Positions 1,608 through 15,959 of a DNA stretch of 18,723 nucleotides are shown in pieces. The stretch spans positions 1-18,723 of the forward strand of contig JAFOJB010000339.1 in the NCBI GenBank assembly GCA_017420455.1, read 5' to 3'. The translations under genes were made by a program, and so were the position numbers. This DNA is from Blautia sp. GTDB taxonomy: Bacteria; Bacillota; Clostridia; Lachnospirales; Lachnospiraceae. Position 1 is the stretch's first letter; every line of letters begins with the position of its first letter. The notes below the pieces were generated by a model. That model saw only the letters and a list, made by a program, of their open reading frames with translations. It did not search any database and was not told the origin of the DNA.

Positions 1608-2029
1608 AGCAGCACCTCCCCCAGATACCCCGCCAGCAGAAAGGGCAGAAAGGGAATCCTTTCTTTTCTCGTGGCCTTATCCTTCAGAAGAAGGAAAGCT
1701 GAAACCAGAAAAGCCAGGAAAAAAGACAGTCCCAGAACAAATACCAGCTCTTCCGGAGAAAGGACCGTTCCCAGTACTGTCAGGGCCAGAGCGTCCCCCA
1801 TACCGAACTGACTGCTGCTGAGCAGGCTTACTGCGATAAAGCAGCTGCCGATTCCCACTGCGCAGATCCTGCTCCTGGTAAATCCCTCCGTCAGAGCGGT
1901 ATAAAGCCCTCCTGCCGCAATGCCCGCCAGCGTAAGAGGCAGAAAGATTTCCCTCTTCCGGATATCGCGGATACTGTTGATTCCCAGGAACAGCAGGAGA
2001 ATTCCCTGAACGATTTTTGTCTGTACCAT
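1601..2029 (-). CDS. prepilin peptidase (A24 family, TadV/CpaA-like)
   Basis: This is a 142-residue integral membrane protein with about five hydrophobic segments, the size of the minimal A24A peptidase without the N-terminal methylase domain. The two catalytic aspartates of this aspartic protease family are visible: Asp22 in SIRDIRKREI and Asp79 in the FGMGD motif. It should cleave the leader of the Flp pilin and of the two TadE-like pseudopilins encoded beside it, at the cytoplasmic face of the membrane. The ATG at 2029 follows AAGGAAGGG by 7 bases, a good ribosome site. Its 3' end overlaps tadE by 7 bases. Confidence 0.88.
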   Translation of the reverse strand: MVQTKIVQGILLLFLGINSIRDIRKREIFLPLTLAGIAAGGLYTALTEGFTRSRICAVGIGSCFIAVSLLSSSQFGMGDALALTVLGTVLSPEELVFVLGLSFFLAFLVSAFLLLKDKATRKERIPFLPFLLAGYLGEVLLW

Positions 2030-2086
2030 ATCGCATCCCTTCCTTTTTTTCTCATTACAGGCAGCTGCGGCAATGACCTTTTACAT

Positions 2087-2134
2087 CTGCTGCAGTGCTT
2101 CTCTCATTCATGACCACACCTGCTGCAGTGCTTC
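2087..2134. repeat. 15-bp direct repeat around the stop of the pseudopilin gene
   Basis: CTGCTGCAGTGCTTC occurs at 2087-2101 and 2120-2134, with a period of 33 bp (11 codons). On the coding strand both copies encode KHCSRC in the same frame, but a TGA (2106-2104) falls between them. It looks like a duplication of the CxxC tail in which the second copy lies beyond the stop. Confidence 0.7.
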
Positions 2135-2901
2135 CATCCCTCCACCTCGGATTCCGGCACCAGAAGCACGGTTCTTTTCAGGCCTCTGCAGGAACCTGTA
2201 TTATGATACCGGTCTCCATCCTCCGTCACATAGACCACACTCCCCGGAGGCTTCCCCCTGCTGCAGATTTCGCAGCCATGGTAATGATGGCCATATTGAT
2301 TCACAGCGTCCGGCACAGAGCTTCCCGGTATCGTATGAACAGAAAGACTGAGATAACTGCAGCCCGGATCAGAATGGATCACATGTCCTGTCTGTGTGAT
2401 ATAGACCATCTGTTCCGCTGTGTGCCCGTCCGTTCCGCCTCCGGAACTGATCTTTCCGCTTCTTCCGGTCCAGCAATGCACGCAGACCCGATTTTCGCAG
2501 GGAATATCCCCCAGAGGCAGCAGCAGCGCCGGAAGATGGATCCGGCCGGCACGTACCAGGGTCATCTCCTCTCTCCCGGCGCTTCCCTTTTCCGCCTCCA
2601 GAAGCCCTGCCTGCTTCGACTGAGCGCAAAGCATGGAAAGCCGGACTGTCTGTATCCGGTAAATATCCAGAAAGGAGAGCATCGTGATCATCCCGAACAG
2701 AAAAACGGGGAGCACCAGAACCGTTTCCACACAGATTCCTGCCATTGCCGCAGTTCTTTTCTCATGCGGCAGGGAAAGATGTTTTTTCGATCTTTTTCTT
2801 TTTTCACAGAATCGTCTGATCCTGGAAGGTCCTGAAGGCAGCGGAGAACGCCCTTTCCTCCCTTTTTCATAATTTCGAAAAAACATCTTTCCCTGCCGCA
2901 T
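2104..2901 (-). CDS. TadE-like pseudopilin with duplicated C-terminal Cys/His (YHxxxC) module
   Basis: The chosen ATG at 2901 is preceded by AGAGGGG at 5 bases; a GTG at 2916 overlapping the previous stop (GTGA) would add five residues. From the ATG the product is 265 residues: an unusually long, very basic cytoplasmic leader (1-50), a pilin-type segment GICVETVLVLPVFLFG with a TM helix (about 57-78), a spacer, then two similar modules. Module 1 (about 166-213) has VYITQTGHVIHSDPGCSYL...CEIC; module 2 (about 223-262) has VYVTEDGDRYHNTGSCRGL...HCSRC. The pattern of hydrophobic strand, His, Cys and CxxC resembles small metal-binding modules attached to secreted Clostridia proteins, so Zn binding or a disulfide-stabilised surface domain is inferred. 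The 5' end carries a perfect 28-bp inverted repeat that could switch the gene off by inversion (see findings). The family is probable; the function is unknown. Confidence 0.72.
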   Translation of the reverse strand: MRQGKMFFRNYEKGRKGRSPLPSGPSRIRRFCEKRKRSKKHLSLPHEKRTAAMAGICVETVLVLPVFLFGMITMLSFLDIYRIQTVRLSMLCAQSKQAGLLEAEKGSAGREEMTLVRAGRIHLPALLLPLGDIPCENRVCVHCWTGRSGKISSGGGTDGHTAEQMVYITQTGHVIHSDPGCSYLSLSVHTIPGSSVPDAVNQYGHHYHGCEICSRGKPPGSVVYVTEDGDRYHNTGSCRGLKRTVLLVPESEVEGWKHCSRCGHE

Positions 2902-2902
2902 G
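2763..2902. repeat. perfect 28-bp inverted repeat with 84-bp spacer (candidate intragenic inverton)
   Basis: Bases 2763-2790 are the exact reverse complement of 2875-2902; the flanking bases on both sides do not pair. The pair lies inside the first 47 codons of the pseudopilin gene, and the right arm covers its ATG. The spacer 2791-2874 is 84 bp and begins exactly at a codon boundary (after codon 9, CGA). In the inverted state the reading frame would give 14 new codons (SFSFFTESSDPGRS) and then TGA. A 28-bp mRNA hairpin burying the start codon is the alternative effect. Confidence 0.85.
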
Positions 2903-2912
2903 CTTTCCCCTC

Positions 2913-4637
2913 TCACGGCTCCCTGCTGCTGTAGCCGTAGATTCTCCTGATCTCAAAATTCTGTCTGAGATTTGCCTTTACATTCACAAATACCTCTGCG
3001 TCACAGATACATGCGTCCAGGCAGAAGGAAGGATCCTCCAGGCGCATCTCCTGTTCCACTACATCCATTGTCCGGATCACCTTATCCTGTTTATCCATCT
3101 TCCTTAAAAAGACATATAATATTTCTCTGTAGGATATTCCGTCTGCTGTTCCTCCCCAGAAGCTTCCGGGCGGCGCAAGGAGTCCCGGCATCGTCTCCAG
3201 CTGTTCCAGGGAAAGAAGCATATTCGAGGCAGTCTTTCTGAGAGGAAGCGTCTGTCCGGAAAAAAGGAGACGGGTTTCCAGAAGGCTTTCTGCATAAACC
3301 CAGGTATACCGGACCGCCTGCTCCACAAGGCTCCTGTCCGGTTTTACCAGATAGGAATCACATACACTGTCTGCAAGCCGGGAAATACTTTCCCGGAGCG
3401 GGCGTTCCGCCAGCATCGTCTCCAGATTCACTCCCTCCCGGAAATGCAGGATTCTGCGGGCTGTTTTCCGGATATTCTGAAGATCCTCTTCCTCTCCCCA
3501 CAGAATGTACTCGATCTGAAAGGCAGGGAAGGAAGGAGCGCTCTCCTCGAGAGAATGCATTTTTTCCATGATGTATGCATCAAAAAGGTCGATGCTTTCC
3601 GCACTGTCATCCGGGAGGAATCCGTCCGGAATCTCCATTCCCTGATTCAGGCTTCTTCCGGAAAGAAGACTTCCGGACGGATTCTGCCCCGGAGTATTTC
3701 CGGCGGTATCCGGAAGCAGAAGCTGTTCCCCCTGTGTTTCTCTGAACGATATCACAGGCTGAAGAGGATCCAGCATTTCCCCTGCTGTCACCTCTGTCCG
3801 GGTATTTCCGTCCGTCAGAAGTGTATCGTTCTCCAGATTTTCTGCCGCTTTCCGGATGCTTTCCTGCTCCGCTTTCGTGATTTCCTCCTGATAACGCTGC
3901 AGATAATTCTCCTGTTCCAGCTGTTCACCCTTTTCACACAGCTCAGCAGCTGCCGCAGAGTCCAGCTTTTCCTGCGGCCTTTTAGCTTTGTTCTGCGCGT
4001 ACAGCTCCTTCATATAGGCTGCTGCCTGCTGAAAAAAAGGTTCTCCCTGGTAATCCACAGCCAGCCGGTACCCGGTAAACCCGCCCCGTCCGGGAACAAG
4101 GGTCTGGTAATTCTGTGTCAGGACCGGATCCATATACCTTCGGAATTCATTGTACACAGAAGAGAGCTCCAGACCTCCCTCCCCGCCTGCATCCAGAAAC
4201 AGTACGTCAAACCGTTCCAGCAGTTCTCTGTCATATTCACCGAAAACGGAAAACAATCCGATATCCACGCCATTCTGGATCTGTGTCCTGGCCCCGGCCA
4301 TCCGGACCGACAGCATTCCGGCGCAGACAAGCGTGGTCATCCCTCCAAGAAGAAGCGCCAGAAAAACCGTCATGCTTCCCGGCAGGAACCTGTTAATACA
4401 GAAAGGCCGTATCCTGTTTTCTTCTCTCTCACGGTTCTTTTTCCTTTCCATTCTTTCCTGCAAGATACAACTCCCCTCCTCATCGGCTTTTCCTTTGCTT
4501 CTTCCTTTCTGTCTCCTCCTGCCGGCTGTTTCCGGACGTTTCTGCCTGCTTCTTTCTCCCGCCTGTTTCCGGACGTTTCTGCCTGCTTCTTTCTGTGCTT
4601 CTCCTTCCGGCTTTTCCGGACGGGCTCTCCCCTGCAT
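2913..4637 (-). CDS. DUF5702-type membrane-anchored protein of the Tad locus
   Basis: This 574-residue protein has an Arg/Lys/Glu-rich N-terminal region (1-87), one TM segment (FLPGSMTVFLALLLGGMTTL, about 85-110), then a large extracytoplasmic domain. The part after the TM (VRMAGARTQIQNGVDIGLFSVF, YDRELLERFDVLFLD) matches the DUF5702 family, which occurs in Clostridia Tad loci and resembles TadG-type proteins in position and topology. The start is uncertain. The ATG at 4637, 21 bases after the pilin stop, has only a weak GGGAA ahead of it; an ATG at 4451 (MERKKNREREEN) is preceded by AGGAAAG and would give a more usual short leader of about 25 residues. A 32-bp tandem repeat at 4526-4594 lies in the extra N-terminal part. 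Its 3' end overlaps the following gene if that gene uses GTG. A structural or surface role in the pilus system is inferred. Confidence 0.78.
   Translation of the reverse strand: MQGRARPEKPEGEAQKEAGRNVRKQAGERSRQKRPETAGRRRQKGRSKGKADEEGSCILQERMERKKNREREENRIRPFCINRFLPGSMTVFLALLLGGMTTLVCAGMLSVRMAGARTQIQNGVDIGLFSVFGEYDRELLERFDVLFLDAGGEGGLELSSVYNEFRRYMDPVLTQNYQTLVPGRGGFTGYRLAVDYQGEPFFQQAAAYMKELYAQNKAKRPQEKLDSAAAAELCEKGEQLEQENYLQRYQEEITKAEQESIRKAAENLENDTLLTDGNTRTEVTAGEMLDPLQPVISFRETQGEQLLLPDTAGNTPGQNPSGSLLSGRSLNQGMEIPDGFLPDDSAESIDLFDAYIMEKMHSLEESAPSFPAFQIEYILWGEEEDLQNIRKTARRILHFREGVNLETMLAERPLRESISRLADSVCDSYLVKPDRSLVEQAVRYTWVYAESLLETRLLFSGQTLPLRKTASNMLLSLEQLETMPGLLAPPGSFWGGTADGISYREILYVFLRKMDKQDKVIRTMDVVEQEMRLEDPSFCLDACICDAEVFVNVKANLRQNFEIRRIYGYSSREP
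4526..4594. repeat. two identical 32-bp direct repeats, period 37 bp
   Basis: Bases 4526-4557 and 4563-4594 are identical, separated by 5 bp. They lie in the 5' part of the DUF5702 reading frame. Because 37 is not a multiple of three, the two copies are read in different frames (AGRNVRKQ versus SRQKRPET), and loss or gain of a copy would shift the frame between the start at 4637 and the membrane segment. Confidence 0.85.
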
Positions 4638-4657
4638 TTCCCGGCGGCATCGCCCGG

Positions 4658-4846
4658 TCAGATTCCCGCGCTCTGACTGGTTACTTTCGCAAGCAGCGTC
4701 TCAACCAGACTGGTCAGCTGGTCCTTGAAGATGACCACGAGTCCGATCAGCACGATCAGGACCAGGATGATCTCCACCACGCCTGCCGCCTCCTCATCCT
4801 CCAGAAAATCCCGGAAGACCGTTTTCACTTCGTTCATTGTATTCAC
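4658..4846 (-). CDS. flp: Flp-family type IVb major pilin
   Basis: This 62-residue protein has a short acidic leader and the pilin segment EEAAGVVEIILVLIVLIGLV followed by IFKDQLTSLVETLL, the classic Flp layout of a short prepilin with one long hydrophobic helix. Glu25 fits the conserved Glu5 of mature pilins if cleavage follows Ala20, so Ala replaces the usual Gly before the cut. Ile26 stands where many Flp pilins have Tyr. An ideal ribosome site, AAGGAGGTG, lies 6 bases from the ATG, the strongest in the locus. A hairpin sits just ahead of it. Both fit a structural subunit needed in large amounts. It should be processed by the prepilin peptidase at 1601-2029 and polymerised by CpaF/TadB/TadC. 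Confidence 0.9.
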   Translation of the reverse strand: MNTMNEVKTVFRDFLEDEEAAGVVEIILVLIVLIGLVVIFKDQLTSLVETLLAKVTSQSAGI

Positions 4847-4883: not shown

Positions 4884-5900
4884 CTATATCCTGTAGAATG
4901 TGAGGAACGCCGGAATCAGAATAATGAACATTACCAGAAGCATCAGAAGGATCATCGGGATGAGGAGTCTGGTGGAGGCAGTTTCGCCCTGTATCCTGGC
5001 CTTCCGTTTTCTCTCCTCCCAGGCCTCCAGGGATTCCCTTTCCAGAAGCTCTGCCAGCTGTGCTGTCCCCTTCTGCAGGTTCTGCACCAGAAGTACGGAA
5101 AATACCCGGTATTTTGCGGTTTTACAGCGTTCTCCAAACCGGAGGCATGCATCATTTTCCGACACGCCGCTGTCCACTTCGTTGCAGAATACCGTCAGTT
5201 CTTCATAGACCGTCCTTTTTTCTCCGGAAGACTGACGATAGACCCGTACCATCTGCCGGAAGGCTTCTCTGGCTGTCATTCCTGCCTGGATAAACAACGT
5301 GAATTTCATGATAAAACCAGGATAGTCCCGAAGCAGTTCCTCTGCTCTCTTTTCTTCCCTTTCCTGCTTTTCCCGGATTTTCAGGATCATGAGGAGCACG
5401 CCGGAAAGCATTCCCAGAACAGCGACAAGGCTCCCTGTTTTCTCCGGTATCCTTGTCCATGTAAGTATCCGGCCTTCATATTCTGCGGGAAGATAGTAAT
5501 AATCCGGATCCGCCTTCTCCCGGTTCAGAAGCGCGGCCTCCTCCAGGATCTCCTGCGTGCCGTCCTCCTGAACGCCGTCTCTTTCCTTTTCTGTCTCCTC
5601 CTTCTCTTCCTGGACCCTGGGCGGGATTTTGAATGCAACCTCTTCCTGACTGTCCTCCTCATGCATGACCAGGTCCTCATGAGACACGACACTTTTCCTG
5701 GCGATCCTTTCGACCGGGGCTTCTGCTTCACGGATATTCCTGACCGTAAGGAGCAGCCCAAGAAGATTTCCCATCATTCCTGCCAGAAGCAGGAGACGGA
5801 AACCCTTTCTTTTTTCCTCCGAATCCAGCGGGATCCTCCCGATCCCTGCCAGCACTGCTGCCATAAGAAGGAGAACGAATAATCCAATATGCACGTACAT
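4884..5900 (-). CDS. tadC: TadC-like inner-membrane platform protein (type II secretion F domain)
   Basis: From the preferred ATG at 5900 the protein has 338 residues; an ATG two codons earlier (5906) is too close to the AGGAGG site, which sits 7 bases from the chosen ATG. Two N-terminal hydrophobic segments (about 3-20 and 36-52) are followed by a long acidic/basic cytoplasmic linker (about 58-125). A third TM lies near 155-175, then the T2SSF domain (LLRDYPGFIMKFTLFIQAGMT ... NDACLRFGERC ... LLERESLEAWEERKRKARIQGETASTRLLIP) and a C-terminal TM. The LxDYPxFxxKxxxLxxAGMT pattern is typical of the Clostridia TadC group. It should form the membrane platform with TadB on which CpaF acts. The preceding 22-codon frame ends in ATGA overlapping the 5906 ATG. 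Confidence 0.87.
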   Translation of the reverse strand: MYVHIGLFVLLLMAAVLAGIGRIPLDSEEKRKGFRLLLLAGMMGNLLGLLLTVRNIREAEAPVERIARKSVVSHEDLVMHEEDSQEEVAFKIPPRVQEEKEETEKERDGVQEDGTQEILEEAALLNREKADPDYYYLPAEYEGRILTWTRIPEKTGSLVAVLGMLSGVLLMILKIREKQEREEKRAEELLRDYPGFIMKFTLFIQAGMTAREAFRQMVRVYRQSSGEKRTVYEELTVFCNEVDSGVSENDACLRFGERCKTAKYRVFSVLLVQNLQKGTAQLAELLERESLEAWEERKRKARIQGETASTRLLIPMILLMLLVMFIILIPAFLTFYRI

Positions 5901-5998
5901 TTTCATCCCTCCTGTTCCCTCTTCAGGGCATACAGGCTGAGTAAGTGAATATCCTCCTGTTCCGCCTGCATTTTCACCCCTCCTGTTCCCTTTTCAGG
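5898..5998. repeat. duplicated 30-bp translation-start segment
   Basis: Bases 5898-5927 and 5969-5998 match at 28 of 30 positions, with a period of 71 bp. Each copy contains, on the minus strand, GGGAACAGGAGG, then GTGAAAATG or ATGAAAATG, that is a complete ribosome site plus start codon. The duplication created a small reading frame between tadB and tadC. Confidence 0.8.
5903..5971 (-). CDS. possible 22-residue peptide between tadB and tadC
   Basis: The frame MQAEQEDIHLLSLYALKREQ... has 22 codons, starts at an ATG 7 bases after AGGAGGGG, and ends in a TGA that overlaps the upstream tadC ATG (ATGA). Its translation signals are as good as those of tadC itself because they are a copy of the tadC start region. 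The peptide has no recognisable motif, and its C-terminal part (LKREQEG) is encoded by the second repeat copy. It may be a coupling leader that feeds ribosomes to tadC rather than a functional protein. Confidence 0.35.
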   Translation of the reverse strand: MQAEQEDIHLLSLYALKREQEG

Positions 5999-6001
5999 AA
6001 C

Positions 6002-6829
6002 TCAGACTGTGATATCGAGGATACGGCTTCCCAGATAAGCAGCTCCCGCGTATACCAGAAGGCAGCAGGTCATCAGAATGATTCCCATGGAATTCCGGTA
6101 CATGGGGGAGAGAAATTCCGGCGAAGCTGCTTTCAGATAAAGGAGGATCGCCGCCGGCATCAGGTCCATGATCAGCTGTTCATTTTTCCTGGCTGCCAGG
6201 GAGGCTTCGATTTCCTCCTCCACCTCCAGCTTCTCCCCCAGCATCCGGCTGGTCTTTTCCAGAATCTCATCCAGGTTCCCCCCTGTCCTTCGGGCCGTCT
6301 GGAAGACTTCTGCGAAATTCATGATGTCCTCCAGCCCCGTTTCCCGGCCGAACGACCAGAAAAGCTTCTCCAGAGGTACACTTACTCTCCGCTGTGTTTC
6401 CATATACCGGAAAGCAGCAAGTACCTCGCTGTCCTTCGGCAGTTCCCCGGCAAGCTCCGGGATCGAGGAGCGAAGCGCATTTTCCGCCGAGTATCCTGCC
6501 CGGATCCCGACGCAGATACTGTCCAGCGCAATCTTAAACTCCCTGTTCATCTTCCTTCGAAGATTCTTTTGCAGTCTTCGTACCTTCCAGCGGACATAAA
6601 GAAAGATCAGCGGACATAAAAACAGTATGGCTGCAAAGGATTCATAGAACAGGTAATCAAGCCCCACACACAGAATAAAACCTTCAAGACAAGCCCTGAT
6701 ATATTCTTTCCGGGGTACTTTTCCATAACGAACAACCGTGTTTCCCGCTTTTTTGTTTCTCTCCTGATCATTCGTGCAGGCCTTTTCTCTTTTTTTCACA
6801 GACCATAAACGCCTTCCTTCCTGGAACAC
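6002..6829 (-). CDS. tadB: TadB-like inner-membrane platform protein (type II secretion F domain)
   Basis: This protein has 275 residues from a GTG at 6829. A basic N-terminus leads to two hydrophobic segments (about 46-78), then a T2SSF domain (FKIALDSICVGIRAGYSAENAL ... FAEVFQTARRTGGNLDEILEKT) and C-terminal membrane segments ending near YAGAAYLGSRILDITV. AGYSxExAL and TGGNLxExL are typical of TadB/GspF proteins. It should pair with TadC as the platform for the CpaF motor. The start is uncertain: the GTG lacks a clear ribosome site, and a second GTG (residue 11) lies about a dozen bases after GGAAGGAAGG. The gene is separated from cpaF by a 357-bp gap with its own promoter-like cassette. 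Confidence 0.85.
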   Translation of the reverse strand: MFQEGRRLWSVKKREKACTNDQERNKKAGNTVVRYGKVPRKEYIRACLEGFILCVGLDYLFYESFAAILFLCPLIFLYVRWKVRRLQKNLRRKMNREFKIALDSICVGIRAGYSAENALRSSIPELAGELPKDSEVLAAFRYMETQRRVSVPLEKLFWSFGRETGLEDIMNFAEVFQTARRTGGNLDEILEKTSRMLGEKLEVEEEIEASLAARKNEQLIMDLMPAAILLYLKAASPEFLSPMYRNSMGIILMTCCLLVYAGAAYLGSRILDITV

Positions 6830-7051
6830 CTCAGCTATGTAAATGATATTTGCTGTGTACTATCAGACAAAAAGACAGGCAGCTTGGGACAGTTATTTCT
6901 GAATGAATTCTCAGGAATCTCCTTTGATCAGATCACTGGCCTCCATCCACTGCACGACTTTTTGCATGAAGATCATATTGTTCCGGATTCGATCCCGAAC
7001 CGCCTTTGTTGGTAAAAATGGGAATTCACCGCCGGATCCGACGGCTTCCTT
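6830..7051 (-). other. non-coding leader upstream of tadB
   Basis: No convincing gene is seen between the promoter cassette at 7052-7126 and tadB. One minus-strand frame ends in MEASDLIKGDS at 6911 and reads like protein, but it has no ribosome site and no recognised family, so it may be a gene remnant. If transcription starts near 7070, tadB has a leader of about 240 bases. Confidence 0.4.
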
Positions 7052-7126
7052 GCAGAAGAAATCTGCTGATAAATGGAGTATATGCCTGCCGCTCACAAAA
7101 GTCCATAGGAAATTTTGTCGAGTGGG
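7052..7126 (-). promoter_or_regulatory. Spo0A-type promoter cassette, copy A (upstream of tadB)
   Basis: On the minus strand a Spo0A-like box (CTCGACAAAA, 7122-7113) is followed 7 bases later by a -35 TGGACT (7105-7100), a 17-base spacer and a -10 TATACT (7082-7077). A GCAGA/TCTGC hairpin (7052-7066) lies downstream of the expected start. The arrangement is the same as in the copy upstream of cpaF, with no gap in 75 bases. The box has one mismatch to TTCGACAAAA. Confidence 0.6.
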
Positions 7127-7186
7127 TTAAAAATCTCAGGCTGTTTTTTGTGAATCATTTATGATTGCATTCCGAAAGGATTTCCT

Positions 7187-8443
7187 TCATCCTTCAGGCT
7201 TCTTTAGCTTCTCTGTCCGCTTCAGTTTTCCAAGGAGCTGCAGGACTCCTTCCCTGTTTCTTTTATACAGGGGATTCAGCAGGATATCCCCATCCTTGTA
7301 CCCGCAAATCTCGGTGATCTCTTCAACCTTTCTTTTCCCCTCTGTGCTTCTTCCCAGATGGACAAGAATCTCCACACCTGCGGCGATCTGCCGCCGTATG
7401 GCTTCCATAGGCAGCTCCATTCCCATCATGGTCATGGTTTCCAGCCGGGAAAGCATATCCCGGCAGCTGTTGGCATGAAAAGTAGAAAGACTCCCCTCAT
7501 GACCTGTATTTAAAGCGGTCAGAAGATCCAGGGCTTCCCCGCCCCGCACTTCTCCCACGATAATTCTGTCGGGCCTGCACCGCAAGGCCGTACGGATCAG
7601 ATCGCGTATCGTCACAGATGTTCCTCCGGCCGTGTTCGCGTTCTTCGCCTCCAGACGAACCAGATTTTCTATTCCCTGCAGCCGCAGCTCCGCGTTATCC
7701 TCGATCGTGATGATCCGCTCTCCCCTGGGAATGTATTCGGACAGGGCATTCAGAAAGGTGGTCTTTCCGCATCCGGTCCCGCCTCCGATCATGATGGAAT
7801 AGCGGGCCTCTACCAGCTTTTTCAGAAACTCAGCGCCTTCCGGGCTGATACTCCCGAAGGCGATCAGCCGGTCCATGGTGATGGGGCGTTCCGAAAAGCG
7901 TCTGATGGTAAGGACAGGCCCGTCCAGGGCTGCCGGAGAAACAATGGCATTTACCCTCGCCCCGTCCGGGAGCCTGGCATCTACAACAGGGCTGGATTCA
8001 TTGATCACCCTGTTGCATCTTCCCGCGATCTGCTGAATGACATCCATCAGTTTCTCTCTGGAGGTAAAGGTCCGGTTCCATCTGCTGATCTTCCCCTCCC
8101 GCTCCACAAATACCGCATCCGGTCCGTTCACCATGATCTCCGTGACCGTATCATCCTCCAGCAGTTCCTGCAGGATATCCAGCTTCCGCACCGAATAAAA
8201 CAGCTCCTGCCGCAGATCGATCCGCTCCTTAAGGCTCAGCATCTTCTCCTCTGTGTGATTCAGGATCAGATCATCGATCTGCTCCCGGATCTCCTCATCC
8301 GAAAGCTCCCGGGCGATATCGAGGCGCTCCATCAGCTGCCTCCGCGTCCTTAAAAACAATTCCTTATTCATTTTCCTGTAACCATCTGTCAGGTCCTGCC
8401 GCCTGGTTTTTCCGGGTGTCCGGCCTGACTTAAGCTTTCTCAT
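7187..8443 (-). CDS. cpaF: CpaF/TadA secretion ATPase of the Tad pilus
   Basis: This 418-residue cytoplasmic ATPase powers Flp pilus assembly. It has a basic/helical N-terminus (1-90), an N-terminal domain containing VTEIMVNGPDAVFVEREGKI (100-119), Walker A GGGTGCGKTT (220-229), an acidic Asp-box-like stretch TIEDNAELRL (246-255), Walker B RIIVGEVRG (293-301) and a His box GHEGSLSTFHAN (314-325). All are intact and typical of the PilT/GspE superfamily, CpaF branch. The start is not certain: the ATG at 8443 has no good ribosome site, whereas Met25 (MNKELFLRTRRQ) follows AGGAA closely. A promoter cassette lies about 60 bases upstream. This is the first pilus gene of the run; no TadZ or CpaB gene lies ahead of it. 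Confidence 0.93.
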   Translation of the reverse strand: MRKLKSGRTPGKTRRQDLTDGYRKMNKELFLRTRRQLMERLDIARELSDEEIREQIDDLILNHTEEKMLSLKERIDLRQELFYSVRKLDILQELLEDDTVTEIMVNGPDAVFVEREGKISRWNRTFTSREKLMDVIQQIAGRCNRVINESSPVVDARLPDGARVNAIVSPAALDGPVLTIRRFSERPITMDRLIAFGSISPEGAEFLKKLVEARYSIMIGGGTGCGKTTFLNALSEYIPRGERIITIEDNAELRLQGIENLVRLEAKNANTAGGTSVTIRDLIRTALRCRPDRIIVGEVRGGEALDLLTALNTGHEGSLSTFHANSCRDMLSRLETMTMMGMELPMEAIRRQIAAGVEILVHLGRSTEGKRKVEEITEICGYKDGDILLNPLYKRNREGVLQLLGKLKRTEKLKKPEG

Positions 8444-12840: not shown

Positions 12841-12997
12841 TACAGTTCACGGTCTCACCGGCTGGAGATTGCATGTGTTTTCAAGTGTCCGGCGTCCTGA
12901 CGGACTTCAGAAGAATCTTTGTCCGCAGTCAAAGAGCGGCCCGTCCTGCAGACACGGACAAAGATTCTTCTGAAGTCAGCATGGCCCGCAACTCATT
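12841..12997. repeat. structured intergenic repeat element, copy 2, with a 23-bp perfect stem
   Basis: Its ends match the element at 8582-8747. The core differs: a perfect 23-bp inverted repeat (12903-12925 with 12955-12977) surrounds a 29-base loop, and a smaller GTCCG/CGGAC stem lies at 12887-12905. It sits 75-230 bases after the xylanase stop codon and about 35 bp upstream of the promoter at 12780-12808. It may end xylanase transcripts, but no T-run follows on the minus strand. Bases 12998-13070 hold nothing recognisable. Confidence 0.65.
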
Positions 12998-15844: not shown

Positions 15845-15959
15845 AAAGGGCTGTGAAAAAAGTCCTGTCCTGACGATCCACGCCCCCTGCAGGATGTCTG
15901 AAATACAGGCATTCCGGCAGGCGGTATGGAAAGGACAGGTGCTTTTTTCACAGCCCTTT
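15845..15959. terminator. long near-palindromic bidirectional terminator-like element
   Basis: Bases 15845-15862 pair perfectly with 15942-15959 (18 bp, AAAGGGCTGTGAAAAAAG), followed inward by CCTGTCC/GGACAGG (15864-15870, 15933-15939). A third, imperfect stem lies inside (CCTGC...TGTCTG-AAATA-CAGGCA...GCAGG, about 15886-15921). The plus strand continues as CCCTTTTTTG, a good T-tract for ending the NhaC transcript. On the minus strand it could end the convergent CapA transcript. The inner 60 bases are far more than a terminator needs, so a mobile palindromic element is an alternative. Confidence 0.65.

Follow-up and report, generated by a model that had tools for sequence, protein, structure and literature searches.

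A perfect inverted repeat in a Blautia tad operon, best read as the stem of a conserved mRNA element at the DUF5702/TadE-like junction of Lachnospiraceae

Among the closest described systems is the kinetic control of the maturation gene in the RNA phages MS2 and Qbeta, for which PMC6071253 gives an account of a ribosome-binding site (RBS) that is open only in the nascent RNA, in Qbeta until its complement has been copied. The locus described here would resemble that account in that folding predicts an RBS that pairs with a complement and is open only in nascent RNA. It differs in lying not in a virus genome but in a chromosomal operon, with the complement 80–194 nt into the coding sequence of that same gene, and in that the helix is kept over much of a bacterial family. 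A second relevant system is translational coupling by RNA unfolding, exemplified in PMC12548453 by phage f1 genes VII-IX with their long hairpin. Here, too, a downstream start is hidden in RNA structure near an upstream stop, with the RBS placed in the structure in 44 of 52 Blautia but only 51 of 96 family genomes; unlike in f1 VII-IX, the hairpin is mostly downstream of the stop and spans the leader-peptide region, and the coupling is our own suggestion. Finally, PMC8040213 reports thousands of candidate structured RNAs from human microbiomes, 2022 of them possibly overlapping coding regions; these are likewise covarying RNA structures in gut bacteria.

The window, by which we mean the whole stretch of 18,723 nt analysed from a Blautia sp. 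genome, carries on its minus strand a tad pilus operon with an ATPase, two T2SSF proteins, a Flp-like ORF, a DUF5702 protein and a TadE-like protein, and with a type IV leader peptidase, a TadE protein and a DUF6382 protein as further members. All coordinates of the operon given here refer to features on this strand. Domain matches place the T2SSE ATPase and the two T2SSF genes at 4884–8443 and the A24 leader peptidase at 1601–2029, the latter being the next gene downstream of the TadE-like gene; a 59-aa ORF at 4658–4837, named by eye from its translation, resembles a Flp-type major pilin. The TadE-like pseudopilin gene itself (2104–2886), with the DUF5702 gene (2913–4637) as its upstream neighbour, lacks a Pfam match and has relatives in 60 of 64 genus genomes, its own included. 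Its protein (2107–2760) carries, despite the lack of a Pfam match, a conserved C-terminal Cys/His pattern, YHN..SCSGLKR....CSRCG, which is perhaps metal-binding. In another genome (locus L284, 1519–2506) the TadE-like coding sequence is divided between two frames that overlap, which may reflect a frameshift or an error of assembly.

The sequence-only reading of the window had pointed to a perfect 28-bp inverted repeat with an 84-bp spacer in the first codons of this gene, and the repeat is confirmed. Its arms, at 2763–2790 and 2875–2902, are 28 nt each, 100% complementary and 84 nt apart, which makes them the longest perfect inverted repeat among those listed for the window at distances of up to 2 kb; one 29-nt pair is also listed, with a complementarity of 76% only. 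The arm has no further occurrence, with up to 3 mismatches allowed, in the source genome, which is a draft of 593 contigs and 77.9% completeness. Folded as minus-strand RNA the repeat reaches a predicted -78.4 kcal/mol (z = -6.9), a stability equalled by none of 200 shuffles, and in a helix scan of the window in 100 tiles of 370 bases (50 places on both strands) it takes both top scores (30.6). The runner-up long helix among the tiles, with a score of 21.4, lies at 3330–3700 within the DUF5702 gene. Two other perfect inverted repeats are found elsewhere in the window: one of 23 bp with a 29-nt spacer at 12903–12977, terminator-like and sitting between xylanase-like and solute-binding-like genes on the minus strand (names by eye), and one of 18 bp at 15845–15959, with arms 79 nt apart between two convergent ORFs, which is possibly a bidirectional terminator.

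In the RNA of the operon, the arm at 2875–2902 forms the 5' arm of the long helix (P1), as judged by the repeat listing and RNA folding, and the stop codon of the DUF5702 gene ends 10 nt before it. In most relatives the homologous arm likewise contains an ATG with its Shine-Dalgarno sequence. The 3' arm (2763–2790), placed by the same evidence and by alignment, falls in the stretch that encodes the leader peptide, ahead of the prepilin-type motif. The 84-nt loop between them (2791–2874) has the orientation seen in relatives when compared with Blautia loops, and at 2843–2857 it holds a diverged form of the loop motif GAAAGG...CTCTC, here GAAAGGGCGTTCTCC, read by eye against the relatives. That the right arm covers the ATG of the TadE-like gene holds insofar as an ATG does lie within it, except that there are two in-frame ATGs there, at 2899–2901 and 2884–2886. 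The second is the likely start, aligning both with the relatives' ATG and with the first residue of the nearest protein-search match (P0002, 54% identity), which begins MFFPH. With this start the Shine-Dalgarno sequence is a weak AGGG within the arm; the stronger GAGGGG of the first, alternative ATG lies upstream of that codon, just outside the arm. The window's own protein cluster (P0001; 2107–2748, 213 aa) starts at an internal Met past the helix, so that its record is without both the leader and the RNA element, and same-species variants in the protein database offer no N-terminal information, the cluster beginning after the helix. In most relatives TadE-like homology starts only at the prepilin-type motif and the preceding leader is variable; this variable leader nonetheless bears an inverted repeat at the same place.

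The genus set comprised 64 genomes, with the gene in 60, of which 58 were tested for the helix, window included; two genomes without upstream sequence beside the gene (G025, G071) and the four without a match were left out, and one locus (L152) was not used. At the DUF5702/TadE-like junction a helix score of at least 13, in a scheme that penalises G.U like any other mismatch, was reached in 53 of the 58, and the genomes without a helix are G003, G027, G031, G069 and G079, of which G079 could be placed only with uncertainty and was scored as a miss. At this junction one Blautia relative near the window (L034, genome G084) carries a helix of 44 positions whose sequence is quite different. The arms of relatives are not identical as DNA, with as many as 7 G.T mismatches within a single helix, and within the Blautia helices we counted 1452 Watson-Crick pairs, 206 G.U, 18 A.C and 26 other combinations. 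Mutation alone is expected to give G.U and A.C at similar rates, strand bias aside, and the large excess of G.U is explained by pairing in the sense RNA, which alone tolerates G.U but not A.C. Relatedness and strand bias inflate these counts, but they would hardly produce a ratio of 11 to 1.

Covariation points in the same direction. For 47 aligned Blautia sequences (helix score of at least 22 required; five divergent sequences excluded) RNAalifold predicted 39 pairs, 29 of them with compensatory changes. A structure of 38 pairs, with 32 in the stem and 6 in an internal hairpin, has 94.1% of its cells paired, 29 of the 38 pairs show two-sided changes, and shifting the partner by 1–3 columns lowers pairing to 46–59%. 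The two-sided changes number 199, compared with 55.3 ± 7.0 in shuffles, none of 500 of which reached 199, with controls that are biased in favour of the helix, as the sequences were chosen by the helix and the structure was derived from the same alignment. The G.U/A.C asymmetry is independent of both of these choices.

Beyond the genus, a match to the TadE-like gene is found in 389 of 396 family genomes. We sampled 109 of these from the best-scoring end of the match list, with a few skipped, and counted 105, having dropped G464 and G474 (not located) and G251 and G156 (mis-located); G005 in this set belongs to Blautia. A helix score of at least 20 was found at the junction in 91 of the 105, mostly the strongest matches, compared with 0 of 105 for same-size segments just upstream, where the maximum was 16.6. 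The family helices have arms of 21–55 positions and loops of 41–238 nt; their arm sequences are very different, with a core like GATGCCCTTTC recurring in many, and some arms are perfect 23–26-mers. In the 96 genomes passing a stricter score, G.U to A.C stands at 234 to 39. Altogether 143 genomes were counted with a helix at this junction, 53 from the Blautia set and 91 from the family set, G005 being common to both. No count was drawn from a further set of outside-genus loci, among which no helix was seen in several with a match beginning inside the protein (L100, L113, L117, L127 and L133, for example), nor in L134. Comparison among genomes shows a predicted long RNA helix at the DUF5702/TadE-like junction that is maintained by selection in most genomes examined, and the repeat in the window is best read as the stem of this putative conserved mRNA element of Lachnospiraceae tad operons.

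A covariance model trained on 11 Blautia sequences matches 51 of the 64 genus genomes, 40 of 53 outside the training set, and scores the window at 90.1 bits on the sense strand versus 52.9 on the antisense strand. Wherever both strands match at the junction in the genus, it is the sense strand that scores higher; G014 is matched on the antisense strand only, and one match in G023 is off-locus. Of 200 family genomes 26 were matched, two of them Blautia, which leaves 24 of 198 outside Blautia, 21 of these at the junction (18 fetched loci, G158, G165, and G191 by coordinates). The off-junction matches are the best ones of G169, G110 and G295 and the second of G158, with E-values of 0.0009–0.005. 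Most other genera escape the model owing to sequence drift.

Intragenic invertons are a described class, and it is as such a DNA switch that the repeat had originally been interpreted. An inverted repeat does flank a spacer inside the gene in the window, the 28-bp arms are perfect, and the flip would, as claimed, introduce 14 new codons and a stop, truncating the gene. The resemblance to the invertons of PMC11892184, as characterised there, extends to an inverted repeat of 10–40 nt around a short spacer near a surface-structure gene; unlike in those, no inversion is seen here and the arms keep RNA pairing, not DNA identity. In relatives the arms have diverged with the gene conserved, an outcome that the sequence-only reading had itself named as refuting a switch, and with mismatches mostly of the RNA type (206 G.T-type versus 18 A.C-type), so that the notion of arms as identical DNA sites is not upheld there; the window's own arms are identical. 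Nor was the spacer found in both orientations among 52 Blautia and 90 family loops, taken from species representatives with one genome per species. The loop motif CTCTC...CCCC is present forward in 36 of the 52 Blautia loops (0.3 expected from shuffling) and 18 of the 90 family loops (0.6 expected) and reversed in none of either set, and GAAAGG is found forward versus reversed in 43 versus 1 Blautia and 40 versus 2 family loops. Pairwise loop scores are higher forward in 1240 of 1326 pairs, with 56 higher in reverse and 30 ties, and of 51 comparisons of the window loop with Blautia loops 47 favour the forward orientation and 1 is a tie. The looser YYTCTC occurs 3 times forward versus 24 reversed in Blautia and 36 versus 14 in the family, an excess of reversed forms in Blautia that we take to reflect purine-rich sense loops and not flipping. 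With the arm, in addition, found at one genome site only, we dropped the inversion switch once relatives had been compared for arm mismatches and loop orientation, and regard it as highly improbable. Seen in a single genome, a perfect repeat could also pass for a mobile element, or for a single template-switch mutation copying one arm as its reverse complement, but either is barely credible for a helix that recurs at this junction in 143 genomes, its arms differing greatly in sequence, and for which the covariance model finds few other places. A mobile repeat was rejected on the uniqueness of the arm in the genome and on model matches at one locus per genome, with few exceptions. Constraint on the protein, by which the sequence-only reading had rightly found the repeat hard to explain, was likewise rejected as the sole cause on account of the G.U/A.C asymmetry and the divergent arms of other genera, despite their recurring core.

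In 52 Blautia genomes the 5' arm follows the upstream stop at a median distance of 8 nt, and in 96 family genomes the median is 7.5 nt; the arm lies within -10 to 25 nt of the stop in 45 and 74 of these, respectively, and most of the rest are further away, with 50–163 nt in some genomes. When start codons are chosen by a simple Shine-Dalgarno score, the best start with its Shine-Dalgarno sequence falls in the 5' arm in the 44 Blautia genomes already mentioned, in the loop in 7 and past the helix in 1. For the family the corresponding figures are 51 of 96 in the 5' arm, 23 in the loop and 13 beyond the helix, the remainder being upstream (6), in the 3' arm (2) or absent (1). For the 50 Blautia genomes in which the arm contains an in-frame start of any kind, folding predicts a mean unpaired probability of the RBS of 0.47 before the 3' arm is present and 0.05 after, with a fall in all 50 and a final value below 0.1 in 44. 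For the window the prediction drops from 0.25 to 0.0004 on completion of the 3' arm, and the mRNA hairpin over the start codon, which had been named as the alternative to inversion, is strongly supported there. Family starts in the 5' arm are similarly covered (0.06 unpaired, rising to 0.40 with the 3' arm scrambled; n = 50), and those in the loop (0.51, n = 23) and past the helix (0.45, n = 13) are predicted to be uncovered. Since the start in 36 of 96 family genomes is likely to be uncovered in this way, hiding the start codon would not be the whole ancestral function, and as the sole function everywhere it is weakened by these two classes. A Shine-Dalgarno sequence with a start, as for a small ORF beginning in the 5' arm, is found there in 13 of 23 genomes of the loop class (5.5 expected) and 6 of 13 of the post-helix class (3.4 expected), figures that are at most suggestive of such an ORF. 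Of the Blautia genomes without a helix, G003 and G027 have a start codon that overlaps the upstream stop, a geometry linked to translational coupling in the account of PMC6728339. This overlap fits coupling as a shared aim, with n = 2 and with G031 lacking an overlap and G069 having a longer gap and none either.

For this window we lean, on balance, towards the interpretation that the helix closes the pseudopilin start on the finished RNA, translation being won by a ribosome that finishes the upstream gene or loads early. In the nascent RNA the RBS would be partly open until the 3' arm, 80–194 nt downstream of the start, is made, and would then be closed. On finished, untranslated RNA the helix would keep the pseudopilin gene silent, and the 5' arm could be kept open by the ribosome ending the upstream gene or by one close behind RNA polymerase. 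The minor pseudopilin would in this manner be tied to the upstream pilus genes and held low relative to the major pilin, and the helix over the start signal probably sets the amount of the minor pilus protein made. The main result against simple closure is the existence of the uncovered loop and post-helix classes in the family set. The gaps of 50–163 nt between stop and helix are also too far for direct opening by the upstream ribosome, the helix-less G031 and G069 lack the stop/start overlap, and the conserved loop motifs are not explained by closure alone. According to PMC12548453, predicted structure just past an upstream stop correlates with weaker coupling, and this counts against closure with ribosome-assisted opening as well.

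These loop motifs suggest, tentatively, a regulated cis-acting RNA, in which GAAAGGA, CUCUC and the CCCC-loop hairpin would bind a ligand (protein, small RNA or metabolite) controlling whether the helix forms, closure of the start being only the output. Several motifs exceed their shuffled expectation. The hairpin with CCCC in its loop occurs in 42 of 52 Blautia loops, where 1.3 were expected, and in 18 of 90 family loops, where the expectation was 3.2; CCCCGAT is found in 30 of 52 Blautia loops (0.3 expected), and GAAAGG and CTCTC are each found in 40 of 90 family loops (3.9 and 10.4 expected, respectively). All 6 pairs of the P2 hairpin show two-sided changes, and CTCTC is found also outside the open frame of the gene in G104, G131, G298 and G227, where the gene starts past the helix. 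However, in most genomes the same letters encode, as seen by eye, a leader peptide in which ..RSL....SP.. recurs, so that part of the conservation may be at the protein level, and the loop of G298, CTCTC included, is crossed by a further small frame. Also against such regulation, the window's own loop has the motif in diverged form only, the CCCC hairpin is absent from 72 of 90 family loops, and no aptamer was matched in Rfam 15, where a search with window positions 1900–4700 and 11 relatives at E ≤ 1 gave 3 matches far below gathering score and none at the helix. RNase III cuts such long double helices, and the element may instead be a processing or stability element, being cut at the junction or protecting the upstream pilin mRNA and so yielding unequal products. 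Arms of 21–55 positions right after the upstream stop, even where the start is uncovered, would suit this, and the loop and post-helix classes are better accounted for than by closure of the start; in Blautia, though, a cut would remove the start codon or split the coding region, and we consider this explanation doubtful. A bolder and rather unlikely proposal is a new family-wide cis-regulatory RNA, placed between pilin and pseudopilin genes, with a drifting long stem and a motif-bearing loop, that would sense a cellular factor, post-stem starts being reached by ribosome carry-over. Such carry-over from the upstream stop across the closed stem would be a bacterial counterpart of ribosome shunting, which in cauliflower mosaic virus reportedly takes ribosomes around a long stem after a short ORF and which to our knowledge is not known in bacteria. 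The arrangement is alike in having a stop codon just before a long stem and, in the post-helix class, the next start past the stem, and unlike in that most Blautia have an open frame running through the stem.

Control of this general kind is already known, and a family-wide element of such form at this junction did not turn up in the open-licence literature searched. We found there no description joining Lachnospiraceae, Tad pili and a hairpin, and no match for the term 'intragenic invertons'. The main text of PMC8040213 contains none of pilus, pili, Tad, Blautia or Lachnospir, and an unnamed entry in its supplementary lists may exist; in PMC2864571 none of the words searched is present.

For the reading of genomes, the case is a warning that a perfect inverted repeat within a gene may be an RNA stem and not invertible DNA. 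The structured RNA found in most Lachnospiraceae genomes examined appears to be unnamed so far, perhaps because it is often inside a coding region and gene prediction may start the protein past it, as happens in the window's own record. Its natural variants represent a large set in which RNA folding, transcription and translation can be set against each other at one junction, and the junction helix is a testable control point for Tad pili, which are surface structures of gut commensals.
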